Below are positions 27,212 through 59,759 of a stretch of DNA of 64,000 nt, piece by piece. Each line of letters begins with the position of its first letter. Position 1 is the stretch's first letter. The notes under the pieces were generated by a model. It was not told where the DNA came from and searched no databases. It worked only from the letters and a program-made list of their open reading frames with translations. The position numbers and the translations under genes were made by a program. Source of the stretch: Bifidobacterium dentium JCM 1195 = DSM 20436 (GTDB lineage Bacteria; Actinomycetota; Actinomycetes; Actinomycetales; Bifidobacteriaceae); NCBI RefSeq assembly GCF_001042595.1, contig NZ_AP012326.1, positions 744,001 to 808,000 on the forward strand. The letters are read 5' to 3'.

Positions 27212-27981
27212 CCGGTGCGATTTGGCTGGCCCGTCCGTTGCGCGATGGTCAACATGAGCATTGCGTGATCGGCATCCCGTTGTACGACCAGATCGCCGCC
27301 GCATAGCATCCGCATCCGTTCGCGGACGTTGCTGAGATCGATGATCGCCTGCCGGTCGTCCTTCAGACGGGTGCATGGCGCGTCGGACATGACCTGTACG
27401 TACCAGTATTGCCGTTCCTTCCATGAGCTGACCGTCAGATGAAGGCCGCTTTTGGAAGTTCTGCCATAGAGCAGCATGTATTCGATGACCGTCTGCAAGG
27501 ACATGGGAGGAATCCGGAACGCTTGCTCCTCGAGTCGCCAATCGACGTGGATGGTTTCCGTCGGATCGAGTTGCTCCAACTTGATGTATGACTTGCAGAA
27601 AGCGACCTCGTCGATGAGCGGTACGGTCTGGTCGTTGCCGAATACCGACAGATTGCCACGCAGATATGCGGAGAAGTCGGCGATGATGCGGCGGGCCTTG
27701 GAGGGATCCTCATCGCATAGCTCCTCAATGGCGGTCAGTGAGTTGAAGATGACATGCGGCTGCCCGGCGAGTGTGATGGTTTTGCTGATGGCCAGATCGA
27801 TTTCGTGCTGCAGTGCGCGTTGCGCGTTGCGACGTTCATGCAGCACGTACAGGAGTACCAGCGCCATCAATGTCCCGATGATGAGGGTGATGACGGCCAG
27901 ATGCCGCAATTCGATGACGTACGTTGAATCCGCGGACGCGAATGCCCATGCGAATGGGTTTCGTACGTGTGTCGGATTCAT
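27175..27981 (-). CDS. LytS-like sensor kinase homologue, probably degenerate
   Basis: 268 residues from ATG 27981, which has GGGGGG close upstream. One membrane helix lies at residues 24-47 (HLAVITLIIGTLMALVLLYV), then a coiled linker, then a His_kinase-type box QPHVIFNSLTAIEEL with His76. The ATP-binding half is weak: the expected ENAIKHG N-box reads IEYMLLYG, and the G-box before NVRERM is missing (IIDLSNVRERMRML). No response-regulator gene is adjacent. It may have lost kinase activity or act as a partner or phosphatase. Its 3' end overlaps the peptide-transport ATPase by 37 bases. Confidence 0.72.
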   Translation of the reverse strand: MNPTHVRNPFAWAFASADSTYVIELRHLAVITLIIGTLMALVLLYVLHERRNAQRALQHEIDLAISKTITLAGQPHVIFNSLTAIEELCDEDPSKARRIIADFSAYLRGNLSVFGNDQTVPLIDEVAFCKSYIKLEQLDPTETIHVDWRLEEQAFRIPPMSLQTVIEYMLLYGRTSKSGLHLTVSSWKERQYWYVQVMSDAPCTRLKDDRQAIIDLSNVRERMRMLCGGDLVVQRDADHAMLMLTIAQRTGQPNRTGYSEAARISSRV

Positions 27982-28261
27982 GTTCCCCCCTGATGCCCGA
28001 GTACGCGGGTTCCTTCTCTTGTGCACCATAGCGGATGAACCGTATCAGAAGCGTATCTGACGACCCTGTAAGGCGGCGTCAAGTCCAAGATGCCGTTTGT
28101 GCGGAAACGATGGGGAGAGGTTGGTGGGCTCATCGGTAAGGTCATTCATGCCGGTCTTTGCGAAATCGGTTAAGCGTCGAGCGTTCACGTGTCGCAGCTG
28201 TTGCCGGTGTGGTGGTGACCGTGTTGCGCAGGGGGTGACACGCCGATGTCCGAGGGTGTGG

Positions 28262-28332
28262 TATTGTTTGAGCCATGTTCAATTTCTCATGTTGTTGCTG
28301 TCGCTGACCAACCGCCCGAGGGGCGCGCGGTT
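28262..28332 (+). promoter_or_regulatory. Putative cysteine-responsive leader of the cbs-metB operon
   Basis: TATTGT (28263-28268) could be a -10 box placing the transcript start at the ATG of the Cys-rich peptide (28275). Three bases after its stop, AACC-GCCC-GAG-GGGC...GGTT (28310-28332) forms a hairpin that a paused or terminating ribosome would partly cover. This is the layout of ribosome-mediated attenuation. The promoter call is weak and the mechanism is inferred. Confidence 0.4.
28275..28307 (+). CDS. Candidate Cys-rich leader peptide (MFNFSCCCCR)
   Basis: ATG 28275 to TGA 28305-28307 encodes ten residues, MFNFSCCCCR, with four consecutive Cys codons (TGT TGT TGC TGT). It lies 312 bases upstream of cbs-metB, whose products make cysteine from homocysteine. 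Runs of codons for the end product are the signature of attenuator leaders, and Cys-rich leader peptides upstream of sulfur genes are known in other actinobacteria. No clear Shine-Dalgarno precedes the ATG, so it would have to be leaderless or weakly translated. A competing frame overlaps it. Confidence 0.45.
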   Translation: MFNFSCCCCR

Positions 28333-28618
28333 CATCGACGCATAACTTGAGATAGGACATTCTTCAGCGTCTGCATGCTGCAGACGGTTGTGAATCGTCA
28401 GCCTTTCGTTCTTCCGACGGCATGAGTGCCGCGGTTGGAAAACATGCGCAACGCAACGAATCCCATAACCATGTACGGTGCGGACGAGCGAAGAACATAC
28501 GACATCACAACGAGTCCCGTTTCAACACTGCACGTGACATCGCGAGCTTCTCGAACACAACGAACACGACGCTTGAATATCGAAAGCCCCCGAAACCACA
28601 CTGCACAAAGGAAACGCC

Positions 28619-29629
28619 ATGACCATCCACGATTCCCTGGCCGAACTCATCGGCAACACCCCGCTCGTCAAACTCAACCATGTGACCGACGGCATCAAGG
28701 CCACCATCGCGGTCAAGGTCGAATACTTCAATCCGGGCGGTTCGTCCAAGGACCGCATCGCCGAACGCATCATCGATGCGGCCGAGCGAAGCGGCGAACT
28801 AAAGCCCGGCGGGGTGATTGTGGAACCGACCTCCGGCAACACCGGCGTAGGTCTGGCTCTGGTGGCGCAGCAGCGCGGTTACCGTACCATCTTCACCCTG
28901 CCCGACAAGGTCTCCGAAGCCAAGCGCGCCGTACTGCGCGCCTATGGGGCCGAAGTGGTCGTGACCCCCACCGACGCCGGTCCGGACGACCCGCGTTCCT
29001 ATTATCAGGTGGCCGAACGCCTCGCCAAGGCGATTCCCGGCGGCTATCGCCCGAACCAGTACGACAATCCGAACGGCCCGGAAAGCCACTACCACACCAC
29101 CGGCCCGGAAATCTGGCAGGCCACCGACCATAAAATCACGCATTTCGTGGCCGGCATCGGCACCGGCGGCACCATCTCCGGCACCGGCCGATACCTGAAG
29201 GACGTTTCCGACGGAGCCGTGCAGGTCATCGGAGCCGATCCGGAAGGCTCCATCTATTCCAATCCCGACGACGTGCACCAGTACAAGATCGAAGGCGTCG
29301 GCGAGGACTTCTATCCCAAGGCCTTCGACCGTGGGCTGCCTGACGAGATCGTGCAGGTGAACGATGCCGAAGCCTTCGAAATGACCCGTCGACTCGCAGG
29401 CGAGGAAGGCCTGCTGGTCGGCGGCTCGTCCGGCATGGCCGTCGTGGCAGCCATCAAGTACGCCCGCGAGCACGATTTGGATGAGCGCCAGACCGTCGTA
29501 GTGCTATTGCCGGATTCCGGTCGTGGATACATGGAGAAGATCTTCGACGACGACTGGATGCGCGCCAACGGCTTCGCCGACATCGTGGAACGCACCACCA
29601 AACCAAGCTTGGCCGAGCAGTACCTGTAA
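28619..29629 (+). CDS. cbs: Cystathionine beta-synthase (CBS-type, without regulatory CBS domains)
   Basis: 336 residues of the fold-type II PLP family. The PLP Lys lies in NPGGSSKDRIAER, the cofactor-binding stretch is EPTSGNTGVGLALVAQQRGY, and the glycine loop is VAGIGTGGTISGTGRYL. Features separating actinobacterial Cbs from CysK are the segment DDPRSYYQVAERLAK, the SHYHTTGPEIW block and the late LLPDSGRGYMEKIFDDDWM. It would join serine and homocysteine into cystathionine. It is followed 72 bases later by metB, together forming a transsulfuration route to cysteine. Many annotations call this cysK, and O-acetylserine use cannot be excluded. Confidence 0.88.
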   Translation: MTIHDSLAELIGNTPLVKLNHVTDGIKATIAVKVEYFNPGGSSKDRIAERIIDAAERSGELKPGGVIVEPTSGNTGVGLALVAQQRGYRTIFTLPDKVSEAKRAVLRAYGAEVVVTPTDAGPDDPRSYYQVAERLAKAIPGGYRPNQYDNPNGPESHYHTTGPEIWQATDHKITHFVAGIGTGGTISGTGRYLKDVSDGAVQVIGADPEGSIYSNPDDVHQYKIEGVGEDFYPKAFDRGLPDEIVQVNDAEAFEMTRRLAGEEGLLVGGSSGMAVVAAIKYAREHDLDERQTVVVLLPDSGRGYMEKIFDDDWMRANGFADIVERTTKPSLAEQYL

Positions 29630-29701: not shown

Positions 29702-30881
29702 ATGACCATCTCGACCAACACCGCAGCCCTGAACGCCACCGCACTCGCCACCCGTGCCATCCACGCCGGACAGGAACCCGACCCGACCACCGGAGCCGTG
29801 GTCACGCCGATCTACATGACCTCCACGTTCAAGCAGGACGGCGTCGGCGGGCTACGCGGAGGCTACGATTACAGCCGTTCCGTCAACCCGACCCGCAACT
29901 CCTTCGACGAGCAGCTCGCCGCAGTGGAAGGTGCCAGGTATGCGCTGAGCTTCTCCTCGGGCCTGGCCGCCATCGATGTACTGCTGCGTTCCACCATCAG
30001 GCCGGGCGACAACATTCTGCTCGGCAACGACGTGTACGGCGGCACCTATCGATTGCTGTCCAAGGTGTTCGTGCCGTGGGGCATCGGCCTCGATGTGGTC
30101 GACATCACCGACACTGCGGCCGTCTCCGCCGCGCTGGGCAAGAAGCAGTACAAGTACATCTGGGTCGAAACCCCCTCCAACCCGTTGCTGAACATCACCG
30201 ACATCGCCGCCACCTCCGCAGTGGCGCATGCGCACGGCACCAAGGTGGTCGTGGACAACGTTCGCCTCGCCGGTATTGCAGCATCCATTGGCCGACGGTG
30301 CCGACGTGGTCGTCTACTCCACCACCAAGTACATCGGCGGCCACTCCGACGTGGTCGGCGGCGCCGTGGTTCTCAACGACAAGGAGACCCGAGACGAGGT
30401 GGCCTTCCTGCAGAACGCAGCCGGTGCCGTGCCGTCCCCGTTCGACTCCTGGCTCGACATCCGAGGCCTGAAGACCCTTGACTTGCGTGTCAAACAGCAC
30501 AGCCGCAATGCGCTCAAGGTGGCGCAGTGGCTCGAAACCCGTCCGGAAGTGGAACGTGTATGGTATCCGGGTCTTGAATCCCATCCGGGACACGAGATCG
30601 CCGCACGTCAGATGCACGGCGGCTTCGGCGGCATGATCTCCGTGCAGATCGCGGCCGGTTTCGAAGCGGCCAAGAAGTTCGCTGGCGCCACCGAAGTGTT
30701 CACGTTGGCCGAATCCCTGGGCGGTGTGGAATCGCTGATCGAACATCCGGGTGCCATGACCCACGCCTCCGTGGCCGGTACCACCCTTGAAGTGCCTGCC
30801 AATCTGGTTCGCCTGTCCGTCGGGCTCGAAGACGCCGACGACCTGATCGCCGACCTCGAGCAGGCGTTCCGCCAAATCTGA
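29702..30881 (+). pseudogene. metB: Cystathionine gamma-synthase/lyase, broken by a two-base deletion
   Basis: Two frames encode one Cys/Met-metabolism PLP enzyme of about 393 residues. The first, from ATG 29702 behind AAGGAG, runs through ATRAIHAGQEPDPTTGAVVT, YDYSRSVNPTRNSFDEQLAA and KVVVDN. The second continues FASPVLQHPLADGADVVVYS, the PLP Lys in STTKYIGGHSD, and ends at 30881. The family needs DNTFASP; here GACAAC is followed by GTTCGCC, so two bases (AC) are missing at 30259/30260. If real, the cell cannot complete transsulfuration here, although the related gene at 57761 might compensate. A sequencing error is possible because no other damage is visible. Confidence 0.88.
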
Positions 30882-54489: not shown

Positions 54490-55568
54490 ATGAGCGTCAT
54501 CGAACTGAAGGATGTATCCGTCACCTTCCATGAAGGCGGCCGAACCGTCGAAGCCGTCAAACATGTGACTTTGAACGTCGACAAAGGCGAGATCTTCGGC
54601 ATCGTCGGTTTTTCCGGTGCCGGCAAATCCACGCTGGTACGTACCATCAACCTGCTGGAACGCCCCACCGGCGGACAAGTCGTCATTGACGGCAATGACA
54701 TCACCGGGCTGAGAGGTGCGGATCTGCGCGGGCTGCGCAAGAAAATAGGCTTCATCTTCCAGGGCTTCAACCTGATCGGCAACGTCACGGTCGGCAAGAA
54801 CATCGAATTCGCGCTTAAAGCGGGCGGATATCCGAAGCCGCAATGGCAGGAGCGCATCCGCGAACTGCTTACGCTCGTCGGACTGGAAAACAAGATCGAC
54901 AGCTATCCGTCCAGCCTTTCAGGTGGGCAGAAGCAACGTGTATCGATTGCCCGTGCGCTTGCCAACGAGCCGGAGATCCTCCTGTGCGACGAGGCCACCA
55001 GCGCGCTGGATCTTGAAACCACGGAAGGCATTCTGGCGCTATTGCAACGCATCAATCGCGAGCTTGGCATCACCATCGTATTCATCACGCATCAATTGGA
55101 TGTGGCCAAGCAGATCTTCGACCGCGTGGCCGTGATGGAAAACGGTGTGGTAGTGGAACAGGGCAACACCTTCGACGTGTTCAGTGCGCCGAATCATCCG
55201 ACCACCAAGGCGTTGGTGGAACCTACCTTGGCATCGCCGTACCGCCGCAGTTGGTGCCGTCGCTACCGGTCGGCACCATCGTGGAGCTGCGATACAAGGG
55301 CGATGCGGCGCTTGAGCCGCTCATCAGCCAAGTGGCACAGGATTACGGCGTAAGCATCAACGTGTTGCATGCCAACGTGGAATACTTCGGTTCGCAGGCC
55401 ATCGGCATTCTCATCGTGTTGGTGGGCGGAGCGGGCGAGCCGCTGGTACAGGCGCTGAATCAGTTGAAAACGCACGTGTTCAGCTACCGGGAACTTGATC
55501 GCGGACAGCTGGCGATCGCTCCTGAAACCGCCGATTCCGTTGCATCCGCTCAAGCTCAGGAGGTGTGA
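54490..55568 (+). pseudogene. metN: Methionine ABC transporter ATP-binding protein, frameshifted in the NIL domain linker
   Basis: Two frames encode one MetN of about 359 residues. From ATG 54490 (behind AACGAGGGAA) the ATPase is intact: Walker A GFSGAGKSTLVRT, signature LSGGQKQRVSIARAL, Walker B ILLCDEATSALD and THQLDVAKQIFDR. After KALVEPTL the frame breaks. Restoring one G in TTG-GCATC at about 55229-55231 gives GIAVPPQLVPSLPVG and continues into the C-terminal NIL domain (ELRYKGDAALEPLISQVAQD), ending at 55568. The loss is in a G-run, so a homopolymer sequencing error is plausible. Read as is, the protein would keep its ATPase and lose the regulatory domain. Confidence 0.87.
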
Positions 55569-55573
55569 GAGAT

Positions 55574-56233
55574 ATGGAAGAAACCCTTGAGATCCTTCAG
55601 GAAAATCTTGCTCAGGCGCTATTGGATACGGCGTATATGGTTGTCATTTCCGCCATCATCGGCGTGGTGCTCGGCACTCTGATCGCGCTGTTGCTGTATT
55701 TGACTGAAAGCCGCCTGTTCAAGCCGAATCGTGTGGTCAACACCATCGTCGGATTCATCGTCAACGCCATTCGATCGCTACCGTTCCTGATTCTCATGGT
55801 CGTGCTCATCCCGGTTGCGCAGCTCTTGCTCGGCGACCCGTACACGCCGACCGGCGGCGCGATCTCCCTGTCGATCGCCGCAGTGCCGTTCTTCGCCCGA
55901 ATCGCGGAAAGCGCGTTTTCCGAAGTCGATCCGGGCCTTTTGGAGGCGGCCATCTCCACCGGTGCCACCACCAGGCAGATCATCTGCGAAGCGGTGTTCC
56001 CACAGGCGTTGCCGTCGTTCATCCGCGGCGTGGTGCTCACCATCATCTCGCTGATCGGCTACTCCGCGATGGTCGGCACCATCGGCGCGGGCGGCATCGG
56101 CGACATGGCCATCCAGTACGGCTATAACCGGTACGAAACCGGCGTGCTCGTGGCGATCGTGATCATTCTGATCGTCATCGTGCAGATCATCCAATGGATC
56201 GGCGATGCCATCGCACGCAAGGTGACTCACTGA
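55574..56233 (+). CDS. metI: Methionine ABC transporter permease (MetI)
   Basis: 219 residues from ATG 55574 behind AGGAGGTG. Five membrane helices, with VVNTIVGFIVNAIRSLPFLI and SIAAVPFFARIAESAFSEVD characteristic of MetI, and the coupling loop EAAISTGATTRQIICEAVFP. It begins six bases after the MetN frame, as expected for the metNIQ set in which the binding protein comes first here. The transporter imports methionine across the membrane. Confidence 0.93.
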   Translation: MEETLEILQENLAQALLDTAYMVVISAIIGVVLGTLIALLLYLTESRLFKPNRVVNTIVGFIVNAIRSLPFLILMVVLIPVAQLLLGDPYTPTGGAISLSIAAVPFFARIAESAFSEVDPGLLEAAISTGATTRQIICEAVFPQALPSFIRGVVLTIISLIGYSAMVGTIGAGGIGDMAIQYGYNRYETGVLVAIVIILIVIVQIIQWIGDAIARKVTH

Positions 56234-56338
56234 GCTTGACGGTGTCGTAACAAAGGTTGACGGCGTACGTGGCAAGCTGAGGCTGTTTTCGGTCCCGGCT
56301 CCACGTACGCGGTTGCTTTCAGCAAGGCAGGTGTTTTC

Positions 56339-57514
56339 ATGACTTCATACGTTTCCCCGGTCGCGTTCACTACGGTCGCGCAGTCGATTCCGCCGAATGT
56401 CTTCGCCGACATGGACCGCAAGGTCGCTGCCGCCGTCGCGGGCGGCGCCGACGTGATCGATCTGGCGAAAGGCAATCCGGACGCCTTTCCGGCGGATTTC
56501 ATCCGTGACGTCGCCAAGCAGGCCGTCGATGACCCCGCGAACGCGCGGTATTCGCCGTTCGACGGCAAACCGAGTTTTCTGCAGGCGGCCGAGCATTGGT
56601 ATCGCAATACGTACGACGTCGACTTGGATTGGAGGACGCAGTTGTTTGCGGTGGAGGGCGCCGTCGATGGATTGGCGGCGCTGTTTGCGGTGCTGGTGTC
56701 TGAGGGAGACGCCGTTGCATACGCGGATCCGTATTATCCGTCGTACCATTGCATGACACTGATGAGCCGCGCTGAGGAGATTCTGCTGCCATCGCTTGCC
56801 GAGCGCGGATTCCTTCCCGATCTGGATGCGGTGCCGGGGGAGACCTGGGATCGCGTCAAGGTGCTGATTCTGAACTATCCCAACAATCCGACCGGCGCGC
56901 AGGCGCCGCGTGAGTTCCTGGAACGCGCCATCGAGCTGGCTCATGAGCACCGCTTCGTGATCGTACAGGATTTCGCCTATGCCGGTTTGGGTGTGCGCAA
57001 TCAGCAGATCAGCATCCTATCGTTGCCGGATGCGTTCGATGTGACCGTCGAGGTATGCTCACTCTCGAAGATGTACGCGATGGCCGGTTGGAGGGCCGGA
57101 TTCATCGCCGGTAACGACGACATCGTCAGCCACGTCAAACAGTATCACTATCAGATGGGTTCCATGGTGACCGGCAACGTGCAGGATGCCGGTACCGTGG
57201 CCTTGCAGTCCGATCAGGAATGCGTGGCCGAGTTGGCTTCACGCTATGCGTTGCGTCGGCAGATCGTCGCCGACGGTCTGCGCGATGCCGGCTTGGACGT
57301 GTTCGATTCGGACGGTGGCATATACGCTTGGGTGCATGCTCCGGAAGGGCTGACCGGCGAGCGGTTCGCCGATCTGCTGCTGGAACGTGCCGCCGTAGCC
57401 GCGCTGCCGGGTACCTGTTTCGGCAAAGTCGGCGTCGACTATGTGCGATTCAGCCTATTGAAGTCAGAGGATCAACTGCGGGAGGCGGTGCGCCGCATAG
57501 CCGCCGTGCTGTAG
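56339..57514 (+). CDS. Class I/II PLP-dependent aminotransferase
   Basis: 391 residues of the aspartate-aminotransferase fold. VKVLILNYPNNPTGAQAPRE is the classic NPTG block, DFAYAG carries the Asp and Tyr facing the cofactor, SLSKMYAMAGWRAGFIAGND holds the PLP Lys, and VRFSLLKSEDQLREAV near the end holds the substrate-carboxylate Arg. It swaps an amino group between an amino acid and a 2-oxo acid; which one is not decidable. It follows the methionine importer, so a part in methionine or aspartate metabolism is possible. Confidence 0.88.
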   Translation: MTSYVSPVAFTTVAQSIPPNVFADMDRKVAAAVAGGADVIDLAKGNPDAFPADFIRDVAKQAVDDPANARYSPFDGKPSFLQAAEHWYRNTYDVDLDWRTQLFAVEGAVDGLAALFAVLVSEGDAVAYADPYYPSYHCMTLMSRAEEILLPSLAERGFLPDLDAVPGETWDRVKVLILNYPNNPTGAQAPREFLERAIELAHEHRFVIVQDFAYAGLGVRNQQISILSLPDAFDVTVEVCSLSKMYAMAGWRAGFIAGNDDIVSHVKQYHYQMGSMVTGNVQDAGTVALQSDQECVAELASRYALRRQIVADGLRDAGLDVFDSDGGIYAWVHAPEGLTGERFADLLLERAAVAALPGTCFGKVGVDYVRFSLLKSEDQLREAVRRIAAVL

Positions 57515-57522
57515 TTGCTAAT

Positions 57523-57571
57523 GGTCGGGCGGTCGTTCTCTGGATGAGAATCGGCCGCCCGGCCATTGTTT
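57523..57571 (+). terminator. Terminator after the aminotransferase
   Basis: GGTCGGGCGG (57523-57532) pairs with CCGCCCGGCC (57555-57564), TTCTC and GAGAA extend it inside, and ATTGTTTTG follows. It ends the MetQNI-aminotransferase transcript. Confidence 0.75.
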
Positions 57572-57760
57572 TGTCGGTATGTGCCGGTATATGAAAAATC
57601 GATAGTGCCTTCAAGAACCCCGAGGTCGCGCGGGAGCGTCAAAAGACCATAAGCAAAGCCTATAAGAAGAGCCGTGTTTCACGGTTTTCGATGGTGTTCA
57701 ATGACGAATGTCGCCGCATGAAAGATATGCGGCCTGATTGAACCCGAGGGGGTGCGCATC

Positions 57761-58972
57761 ATGGCCAGATTCAATACCCAGCTTGTCCACGGGCTACCGG
57801 TCAACGACAACAACACCGGAGCCGTGAACCCGCCGATCTACAACTCGTCCACCTATGCTTTCGAATCGGTCGAGTCCATGCCTCGCTGGGATTATGCGCG
57901 CAGTGGCAATCCAACCCGCGAGTTCCTAGAAAAGCAGATCGCGCAACTTGAGCATGGCACACGTGGTTTCGCTTTTGGTTCCGGCCTTGCCGCCATCCAT
58001 GCGGTGTTGTCGATCTTCCAGCCCGGCGACCGTATCATCGCTGGAGATAATGTATATGGCGGGTCATATTCGCAGTTGAACGAACACTTCAACCGCTGGG
58101 GTCTTCTCGTTGATTCCGTCGACACCTGCAATCTGACAGATGTCGAGCGGGCCGTCGCAGGACATGATGCAAATGGTAGATTTCCGGCAAAGGCAATCTA
58201 CTTTGAAACCATCACCAATCCCTTGCTGAAGGTGAACGATGTGTATGCGATTGCTGAAATCGCACATCGTTACGGGGCGATAGTAATCGTCGATAATACG
58301 TTCGTTACGCCGTATCTGCAGAATCCGCTTGATCTCGGGGCGGACATCGTACTGCATTCGGCTACGAAGTACTTGGCCGGACATTCCGATGTGATTGCGG
58401 GTTTGGTCGTGACGAAGGATGATCGGCTTGGACAGCGTGTATACTTTGCACAAAATCGTCTTGGTGGAGTGCTCGCTCCGACGGAGTGTGATTCGGTGCG
58501 TCGGGGCATTCAGACGTTAGCGTTGCGATTGGAACGGCAGCAGGAGAACGCGATTTCGGTGGCGAAGTACTTGTTGAACCATCCGCTAGTGAGGAACGTC
58601 TATTATCCAGGACTCACTGATGGTGAGAATCTGGTTGCTAAGGGGCTTCGTGGCGCCGGTGGCGTCCTGAGCTTTGAGGTCGTCAAGGGAATCGACCCAT
58701 CTGACGTGTTGAACAACCTGAGGCTATTCCGTTTGGCGGTTTCCTTGGGCGCTGTTGAGAGTCTCGCCGAACTACCGTGCCGTATGACGCATTTCGAACT
58801 TCCGCGTGACGAGCGTTTAAAAGTCGGCATCACTGATGAGCTGATTCGCCTATCCATCGGCATTGAAGATGCTCGTGATTTGACGGAAGATCTGGCTCAG
58901 GCATTTGAGAAGGCTGCAGAAGCTTGTTTGATTGCGAGGGAGAAACCGCTTGACGAGAGTGCGCTGGTCTGA
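57761..58972 (+). CDS. Cys/Met-metabolism PLP-dependent lyase or synthase (MetB/MetC/MegL family)
   Basis: 403 residues from ATG 57761 (GTG 57752 is possible; GAGGGGG fits the ATG). Fold-type I enzyme: NPPIYNSSTYAF, RSGNPTREFLEKQIAQLE, GFAFGSGLAAIHAVLSIFQP, DNTFVTPYLQNPLDLGADIV and the PLP Lys in HSATKYLAGHSD. It is distinct from metB at 29702, and the family covers cystathionine synthases and lyases and methionine gamma-lyase. Given the amino-acid importer that follows within 40 bases, a lyase acting on an imported sulfur amino acid (for example cystathionine or cystine) is likely. Confidence 0.9.
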   Translation: MARFNTQLVHGLPVNDNNTGAVNPPIYNSSTYAFESVESMPRWDYARSGNPTREFLEKQIAQLEHGTRGFAFGSGLAAIHAVLSIFQPGDRIIAGDNVYGGSYSQLNEHFNRWGLLVDSVDTCNLTDVERAVAGHDANGRFPAKAIYFETITNPLLKVNDVYAIAEIAHRYGAIVIVDNTFVTPYLQNPLDLGADIVLHSATKYLAGHSDVIAGLVVTKDDRLGQRVYFAQNRLGGVLAPTECDSVRRGIQTLALRLERQQENAISVAKYLLNHPLVRNVYYPGLTDGENLVAKGLRGAGGVLSFEVVKGIDPSDVLNNLRLFRLAVSLGAVESLAELPCRMTHFELPRDERLKVGITDELIRLSIGIEDARDLTEDLAQAFEKAAEACLIAREKPLDESALV

Positions 58973-59006
58973 GAGTCAGCTATCACGTGACGATTGAGGT
59001 GTAAGC

Positions 59007-59759
59007 ATGATAAAGATTCGAGGCGTACGAAAATCGTTCGGGACGCAAGCGGTACTTAATGGCATCGATTTGGATATTCCGCAGGGCAACGTCGTTTCAA
59101 TCATCGGGCCGAGCGGGTCTGGAAAATCGACGCTATTGCGTGTGATTGACTATCTGGAGTCTGCCAATGATGGGACGATTGACTTCGGTCAAGGCATTGT
59201 TTCTTTGGCCAGTGCCAGGCCTAAGGATATCTTTTCGGTTCGTTCGAAGATTGGATTCGTGTTCCAGAATTACAACCTTTTTCTGAATAGAACCGCTTTA
59301 GATAATGTTGCGCTTGGCTTGATGCATGTCAAGGGACAGAGCCGCAAGGAGGCTGAACGTACTGCGCTTGATGAGCTTGAACGGGTGAAAATGGCTGATT
59401 TTGCCGACAGATATCCGAGCAGGTTGTCCGGAGGCCAGCAGCAGCGTATCGCCATAGCTAGGGCGATCGCCTTGGAGCCGGAGCTGTTGGTGTTGGATGA
59501 ACCTACGTCTGCTTTGGATCCGGAAATGGTGGGCGGAGTGCTTGCCGTTATCAGGTCTTTGGTTGATTCCGGAATGACCATGCTTATGGTTACGCATGAG
59601 ATGCGTTTCGCTCGTAATGCATCTGATCATGTCGTGTTCTTCGAAAGCGGCAAAATCGTGGAGCAGGGTAGTCCGGAACGAATCTTCAATCACCCGACTG
59701 AAGTGCGTACTGCGCGGTTTCTGGCTTCGATACACGATTCTAGTTTAATTTATAGCTAG
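59007..59759 (+). CDS. Amino-acid ABC transporter ATP-binding protein
   Basis: 250 residues. All ABC motifs are present: Walker [20 protein letters not shown]-loop FVFQNYNLFLNRTALDN, signature [15 protein letters not shown], Walker [19 protein letters not shown] and switch VTHEMRFARNASDHV. It starts behind TGAGGTG, 34 bases after the PLP enzyme gene, so enzyme and transporter are probably one unit. Pairing with the binding protein at 59865 and the permease at 60759 gives a complete polar amino-acid importer. Confidence 0.94.
   Translation: MIKIRGVRKSFGTQAVLNGIDLDIPQGNVVSIIGPSGSGKSTLLRVIDYLESANDGTIDFGQGIVSLASARPKDIFSVRSKIGFVFQNYNLFLNRTALDNVALGLMHVKGQSRKEAERTALDELERVKMADFADRYPSRLSGGQQQRIAIARAIALEPELLVLDEPTSALDPEMVGGVLAVIRSLVDSGMTMLMVTHEMRFARNASDHVVFFESGKIVEQGSPERIFNHPTEVRTARFLASIHDSSLIYS

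Follow-up and report, generated by a model that had tools for sequence, protein, structure and literature searches.

How is cbs controlled in bifidobacteria, and what part might be played by a short ORF rich in Cys codons that precedes the gene? Bifidobacteria are major gut commensals which, according to excerpts of a 2024 paper on Cys and Met in B. longum (PMC11540073), do not directly utilize sulfur and whose Cys/Met pathway is poorly understood; the main text of that paper mentions neither a leader, a promoter, an operon nor an upstream region. Seliverstov et al. (2005) predicted a candidate Cys leader peptide before B. longum cbs (PMC1262725); in the excerpted text no further attenuator parts are reported, the mode of regulation is called unknown and Rho is suggested, and the control of cbs is thus left without a mechanism. 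For the Bifidobacterium dentium locus, which lies in a stretch of 64,000 nucleotides (the window), an original prediction had proposed that a Cys-codon ORF and a hairpin just downstream of it form an attenuator of cbs-metB, in which the downstream fold would change once a ribosome pauses on the Cys run. Here, we analyzed the window together with related cbs loci; the features considered are compiled in Table 1.

Table 1. Elements of the cbs leader region and downstream genes, in window positions
Feature	Position	Strand	Basis
-35-like or operator-like candidate, GACACGC (28237-28243) then TGTC (28247-28250)	28237..28250	+	column counts, 57 leaders
Extended -10-like element TG-G-TATTGT	28259..28267	+	column counts, 57 leaders
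Segment 1, probably leaderless uORF for the peptide MFNFSCCCCR	28275..28307	+	sequence, relatives, shuffles
Long predicted hairpin with the whole uORF as 5' arm ('off' helix 1:2)	28275..28360	+	predicted folds, pair counts
Segment 2, hairpin 3' arm (arm2), core GCATAACTTGAGATAGGAC at 28340-28358	28332..28360	+	conserved block; predicted to pair with segment 1 or 3
Segment 3, putative switch element, core GTCCCGTTTCAA at 28514-28525	28514..28553	+	predicted to pair with segment 2 or 4
Segment 4, cbs Shine-Dalgarno (SD) region AAAGGAAACG	28607..28616	+	complementarity, fold
cbs (PALP family, cystathionine beta-synthase-like), the regulated gene in the proposal	28619..29629	+	profile, translation
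metB-like Cys/Met PLP gene, two frames, frameshifted in the window genome	29702..30881	+	Pfam

A conserved polycysteine uORF and its promoter-like surroundings

Translation of ATG 28275 to TGA 28307 (codons ATG TTC AAT TTC TCA TGT TGT TGC TGT CGC TGA) confirmed the predicted decapeptide with its four consecutive Cys codons. On both strands of the window this uORF is the sole ORF of up to 20 codons with at least three Cys codons in a row, and when the intergenic region was shuffled 2000 times with dinucleotides preserved, a short ORF with a 4-Cys run appeared in no shuffle and one with a 3-Cys run in 16. Genome-wide, (TGY)4 gave 29 matches versus 28 for the reversed control, so that the Cys run by itself is ordinary, and it is the placement and the conservation of the uORF that are unusual.

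For the comparison with relatives, we took the best 80 of 160 loci encoding Cbs relatives, 60 of them from 59 genomes of Bifidobacteriaceae, with L044 and L046 identical to each other. A Cys-rich uORF is present at all 60 Bifidobacteriaceae cbs loci examined: within 900 nt upstream of cbs, 59 of these 60 loci (among the best 80 of 160) match the strict pattern M-4aa-C(3-5)-R-stop, and the 60th, L027, carries an interrupted run (CCRCC-R-stop). The original prediction had staked itself on conservation of the Cys codons, and conserved they are, with the one interruption just mentioned. Among the other 20 loci, the strict pattern was found in three (two Aurantimicrobium, one Actinomycetales MAG) and was absent from 17. 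The uORF was likewise seen in 30/30 of the best loci from further same-genus genomes, a set that includes the window's own locus and overlaps the species of the 60. Its N-terminal residues vary among leaders (MFNFS, MQIFS, MTYLM, MINRS, MTFFS). The strict uORF match comprised 62 loci plus the window, of which 57 leaders were kept for most counts; the six dropped (L041, L064, L066, L072, L073, L077) had no arm2 by pattern, although L041 visibly has a variant arm. The 57-leader set contains identical leaders, L044 and L046 being the same letter for letter, and because species that are related do not count as independent, the P values given below overstate significance.

In 57/57 leaders the ATG lies exactly 15 nt 5' of the first Cys codon. 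The competing frame from ATG 28289, which had been listed as a weak point of the original prediction, lost its weight in the comparison: it starts with ATG in 34/57 leaders and has the same TAA stop in 30/57 only; what is conserved is the Cys frame. Codon choice in the uORFs is strongly biased, with TGT accounting for 202 of 213 Cys codons in 63 uORFs (TGC, 11) versus 40 of 183 (TGC, 143) in the 43 long window ORFs, which were chosen by length alone.

The promoter-like signals are conserved in their spacing. In the window, TATTGT (28262-28267) ends 7 nt 5' of the uORF ATG, and over the 57 leaders the distance from the end of the TANNNT box to the ATG is 7 nt in 50, 6 or 8 nt in six and 2 nt in one; column counts over the same leaders also reveal the upstream TG of an extended -10 element. 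That the uORF has no clear Shine-Dalgarno motif, a further weak point raised before, is true: AGGA, GGAG or GAGG at -18 to -4 occurs at 0/57 uORF starts versus 36/57 cbs starts. The lack of an SD fits a leaderless start behind a box ending 7 nt before the ATG, and this geometry would place the start of transcription at or adjoining the uORF AUG, making the uORF, as judged from sequence, probably leaderless. In B. pseudolongum, leaderless starts make up 15% of 174 mapped TSS, according to the excerpted mapping study (PMC4782308). A consensus scan for a full sigma-70 promoter at the leader found none. Farther upstream, GACACGC is positioned about 32-38 nt before the uORF ATG, with 40-50 of the 57 leaders agreeing per column; its arrangement in the window, GACA-N6-TGTC, may represent an operator or an unusual -35 element.

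Complementary segments and their predicted effect on the cbs SD

The GC-rich hairpin at 28310-28332 in the original prediction is present as roughly the tip of a predicted stem that is considerably longer and engages the entire uORF; its 3' arm holds the conserved block GACGCATAACTTGAGATAGGAC. In alignment A2 (18 leaders with a shorter Cys run), 94.1% of helix 1:2 cells are paired versus 30-43% when the arms are slid, and the covariation score as well as the count of cells changed on both sides exceeded all 500 shuffles, whereas the number of pairs having such a change, three, did not (78/500 shuffles reach it). In A3 (14 leaders with a longer, 4-Cys run), the main helix is 91.7% paired and covariation was not above shuffles, the helix being conserved and covariation therefore uninformative. 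A2 and A3 replaced a mixed MAFFT alignment of 45 leaders (A1), on which RNAalifold predicted no pair and which was abandoned because 3-Cys and 4-Cys uORFs were out of register; the pair counts for helix 1:2 thus cover 32 of the 57 leaders. Cognate 1:2 duplexes are more stable than species-swapped ones (-11.7 versus -10.0 kcal/mol; 14/20 representatives, P <=5e-5). One clade has a hairpin loop larger by tens of bases and retains the stem. A search of Rfam 15 with window positions 27500-29000 returned no match at E up to 5.

A further weak point of the original prediction was how far the uORF lies from cbs. This distance is real, 311 nt lying between the uORF stop and the cbs ATG at 28619, but the stretch houses a putative second switch element, segment 3. 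Across leaders, the segment 3 block is found about 90-170 nt upstream of cbs; in the window, it complements the 3' arm sequence TTGAGATAGGAC, and its CGTTTC (28518-28523) is complementary to GAAACG (28611-28616) in segment 4. For helix 2:3, 260 of 308 cells are paired in 22 main-type leaders versus 68-169 when slid, a count from which L043, L044, L047 and L063 were left out for register shifts and to which L027 was added. At variable positions C-G is exchanged for T-A and T-A for G-C; the inner position p+14 pairs in only 3/22 leaders.

Both complementarities of segment 3 proved specific for the cognate leader. Duplexes 2:3 reached -14.2 kcal/mol versus -10.7 after swapping between species (19/20 representatives; 0/20000 permutations) and duplexes 3:4 -11.4 versus -9.6 kcal/mol (14/20 representatives; P <=5e-5); over all 25 leaders the test gave P <=1e-4 for these two helices and for 1:2, these leaders having been selected by the motif seen in them, except for L020 and L063, which were picked by their own best match and are thereby favored. 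Among the controls, arm2:SD (P 0.20), uORF:SD (P 0.997), arm2:reversed element 3 (P 0.13) and element 3:reversed SD (P 0.63) showed no preference for cognate partners, and a borderline one was seen for uORF:reversed arm2 (P 0.046). A search in which the stretch from -180 to -60 before cbs was fixed and element 3 left unpicked gave cognate versus swapped scores of 19.6 versus 16.7 for arm2 and 19.6 versus 15.6 for the SD in 42 representatives (P <5e-5 in both cases). The reversed SD showed no such difference (P 0.50); the reversed arm2 was significant too, albeit with a smaller gap (15.9 versus 15.1; P 0.004).

Segment 3 is not uniform. The main motif is absent in 24/57 leaders, and in six more the motif match was judged to be another form; clade-specific versions pair GTCTCATTTC with GGAATGAGAC (L050), TCTCGTTTC with GAAACGAGA (L039, L040, L081) and TCGTCACTTTCCTT with AAGGAAAGAGACGA (L031, L033). 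The 3:4 core of the window comprises only 6 bp and is not unusual by itself (ungapped shuffle P 0.35). Whole-leader RNAduplex with unlimited loops gave weak shuffle values (window, 0.23) and was set aside in favor of ungapped scoring, cognate swaps and accessibility folding; in 28/57 leaders it placed the best target of arm2 and that of the SD on sites sharing at least 4 nt, a count with no null computed.

Each leader was folded in three ways that approximate its states: free, with the uORF removed (equivalent to a ribosome residing there), and with the 3' arm shuffled on top of this removal. Predicted pairing of the SD region in the 57 leaders averaged 0.598 in the free state, 0.494 with the uORF blocked and 0.600 when arm2 was shuffled in addition (Wilcoxon 8e-7 and 3e-8 for the differences); the 42 representatives, 19 of which showed a drop, had corresponding values of 0.616, 0.477 and 0.611. 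Blocking the uORF decreased SD pairing by more than 0.1 in 20/57 leaders and increased it by more than 0.1 in 0/57, the change remaining at or below 0.1 in the other 37, among them L009 (0.63 to 0.61), the nearest of the named relatives. For the wider region from the SD to the ATG, 21 of all 63 leaders opened by more than 0.1 and two closed by more than 0.1 (L025, L033). A hold-out set consisted of those eight of 30 loci (L089-L118) that were less than 80% identical to known leaders, the other 22 being skipped as too similar; here, three leaders opened by more than 0.1, one closed by 0.1 and four were unchanged, and the best arm2 target was at -92 to -104 in 5/8, although some of the eight may be close relatives with indels, as identity was measured without gaps. 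In the predicted minimum-energy folds of the window, 28518-28523 pairs with 28611-28616 when the leader is free, and 28317-28358 pairs with 28514-28553 when the uORF is blocked, so that the two folds use 28514-28553 in a mutually exclusive manner. Masking and freeing of the SD depending on uORF occupancy is thus predicted on average and is in line with the cognate specificity of the helices, and the folding predicts SD opening in part of the leaders, with a clear switch in 20/57 only and a mixed outcome in the hold-out set.

We consider it likely that these elements constitute a cysteine-sensing translational attenuator of cbs-metB made of four segments, with the pairings 1:2 and 3:4 representing the off state and 2:3 the on state. 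Transcription would probably start at the uORF AUG or right beside it, and we propose that the ribosome begins at this 5' end without an SD. When Cys-tRNA is plentiful, the ribosome would pass the three to five Cys codons and depart at the stop, after which segment 1 could pair with segment 2; segment 3 would then be available to bind segment 4, the cbs SD region, and cbs translation would stay low. When Cys-tRNA is scarce, the ribosome would stall on the Cys run and cover segment 1; segment 2 would be released and capture segment 3, whereby the cbs SD would be uncovered and cysteine-free Cbs made. Sequence and computation show the conservation of the uORF, the promoter-like spacing, the three complementarities with their cognate specificity and, in part of the leaders, a predicted opening of the SD. 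We infer where the transcript starts, that ribosomes stall, in which direction and how strongly cbs responds, and that the controlled step is probably translation and not transcription. Ribosome pausing on the Cys run that changes the downstream fold is consistent with the predicted anatomy, and the original prediction seems right in kind, given the conserved Cys codons, yet incomplete regarding the probably leaderless start, the length of the hairpin and the second element. With somewhat less assurance, we favor the broader notion of a genus-wide Cys switch in Bifidobacterium made purely of RNA and ribosome, in which a leaderless mini-gene of Cys codons would govern cbs translation from some 300 nt away by means of three mutually exclusive, co-evolving helices.

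Alternative explanations

Rho-dependent attenuation, the proposal made by the 2005 authors for B. longum cbs in the excerpted text (PMC1262725), would have the ribosome leave the uORF when Cys is plentiful, upon which Rho loads on the untranslated C-rich leader, with ribosome stalling preventing this. In its favor, 205-662 nt separate the uORF stop from cbs in the 59 strict-pattern Bifidobacteriaceae loci, and C exceeds G in 55/57 leaders. This excess, though real, is mild (0.31 versus 0.24), and only 19/57 leaders pass the mark of C=2G in the final 72 nt ahead of the SD. Rho needs no complementarity between segments 3 and 4, yet these segments are complementary with cognate specificity. We regard Rho as an unlikely sole explanation; since masked translation could secondarily admit Rho, it may also coexist with SD masking as an extra layer.

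Considerably less probable is that the uORF works without any RNA switch, be it by coupling, by re-initiation, by protection of the mRNA through the stalled ribosome or by the peptide itself. Such a reading would accommodate the conservation of the uORF in leaders whose segment 3 is not readily recognised, as in the 24/57 leaders without the main motif, but the gap between uORF and cbs exceeds 200 nt, which makes direct coupling unlikely, and the peptide N-terminus varies while Cys codons and RNA pairing persist, the Cys codons moreover being biased to TGT, the form used in the pairing.

A classical transcription attenuator with an intrinsic terminator in the style of the trp leader would share the mutually exclusive helices 3' of a regulatory codon run, and six T in eight positions occur somewhere past the start of the hairpin 3' arm in 21/57 leaders. 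However, a conserved U-run after the hairpin is not visible in the leaders inspected, and no GC stem followed by a U-run stands out before cbs in the window, the one weak 5-bp terminator-like match (0.5 expected) lying away from the conserved helices; we deem this possibility very improbable.

That the uORF is a chance ORF without function, as the ordinary genome-wide frequency of (TGY)4 might suggest, can, as far as sequence permits, be discounted almost entirely in view of its conservation in the loci examined and its 4-Cys run not recurring in 2000 shuffles.

Relation to known leaders and the genes downstream

The translational attenuator that we favor has several relatives in the literature. 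The B. longum candidate concerns the same gene in the same genus and, in the excerpted 2005 text, is a uORF with a Cys run near its stop codon (PMC1262725); the window uORF and those of its relatives are probably the same element, the fetched loci including none labelled B. longum. Beyond what that excerpt contains, we describe a promoter-like geometry suited to leaderless starts, the long uORF hairpin, a candidate switch element, predicted SD masking and an occurrence in many species. In mycobacteria, poly-Cys uORFs are known by experiment: the leaderless polycysteine sORFs of Canestrari et al. (2020), cited here through excerpts of PMC9031893, PMC9094748 and PMC13236596, are described there as mediating Cys-responsive attenuation at the level of translation. 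As in that type, a short ORF with consecutive Cys codons precedes a Cys-biosynthesis operon in the present case, and a sequence signature that would suit a leaderless start is present, with a -10-like box 6-8 nt before the ATG in 56/57 leaders and an SD-like motif in 0/57; the bacterial family and the operons differ, and we liken the two by description only. The uORFC-8-2 motif of Rhodobacterales cysS, described in the excerpted PMC8632094, shares the Cys-codon uORF within the first stem. Its own features are two Cys codons, cysS as the gene, an alphaproteobacterial distribution and an intrinsic terminator with a U-run, whereas the leader studied here precedes a PALP-family cbs and has no U-run terminator at the hairpin, which places it outside uORFC-8-2.

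Among open-licence literature, no paper on this cbs switch was recognised from titles and abstract openings of the matches listed. As the peptide has been known since 2005 and the principle from mycobacteria, only the anatomy of the switch appears to be new. If correct, it would supply the missing half of the 2005 leader peptide and a structural template for other actinobacterial leaderless poly-Cys attenuators, including what to seek in mycobacterial leaders; the predicted anatomy makes control of cbs directly testable by a few point mutations. In the classical trp and his attenuators, the position of the ribosome decides between two mutually exclusive pairings among four segments. The same logic would apply to the cbs leader; unlike in trp and his, its final helix would not end transcription but mask an SD some 300 nt further downstream, and its sensor ORF is probably leaderless.

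Cbs itself is devoid of Cys residues in 57/57 of the leaders' species, window included, and can therefore be made during Cys shortage; of the metB products of relatives, five of six checked are likewise without Cys. In the window, the Pfam profile Cys_Met_Meta_PP matches one metB-like frame over its positions 2-169 and the other over 175-380, with the break at 30245-30262, while metB is intact (393-411 aa) in the five closest relatives checked (L009-L012, L079). The split may mean that this step has truly been lost, or it may be a sequencing error.

A second cluster is located at 55565-59759 of the window and includes ORF 57752-58972. By translation, we take its ORFs to encode an ABC permease, an aminotransferase-like protein, a Cys/Met PLP-like protein (57752-58972) and an ABC ATPase. 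The second poly-Cys match of the window, at 57801-57815 on the minus strand, lies antisense within ORF 57752-58972 and was rejected as a leader. In B. saimiriisciurei, the two letter-for-letter identical 6-kb cbs loci (L044 and L046) reside about 270 kb apart on one contig. Finally, the cbs genes of Aurantimicrobium (Microbacteriaceae; L073 and L077) are preceded by a GTG-started poly-Cys uORF in a much shorter leader, the Cys codons of which are predicted to pair with a downstream CAACATCGAGA-type arm; the design of a hairpin built on a poly-Cys uORF may thus reach beyond Bifidobacteriaceae.
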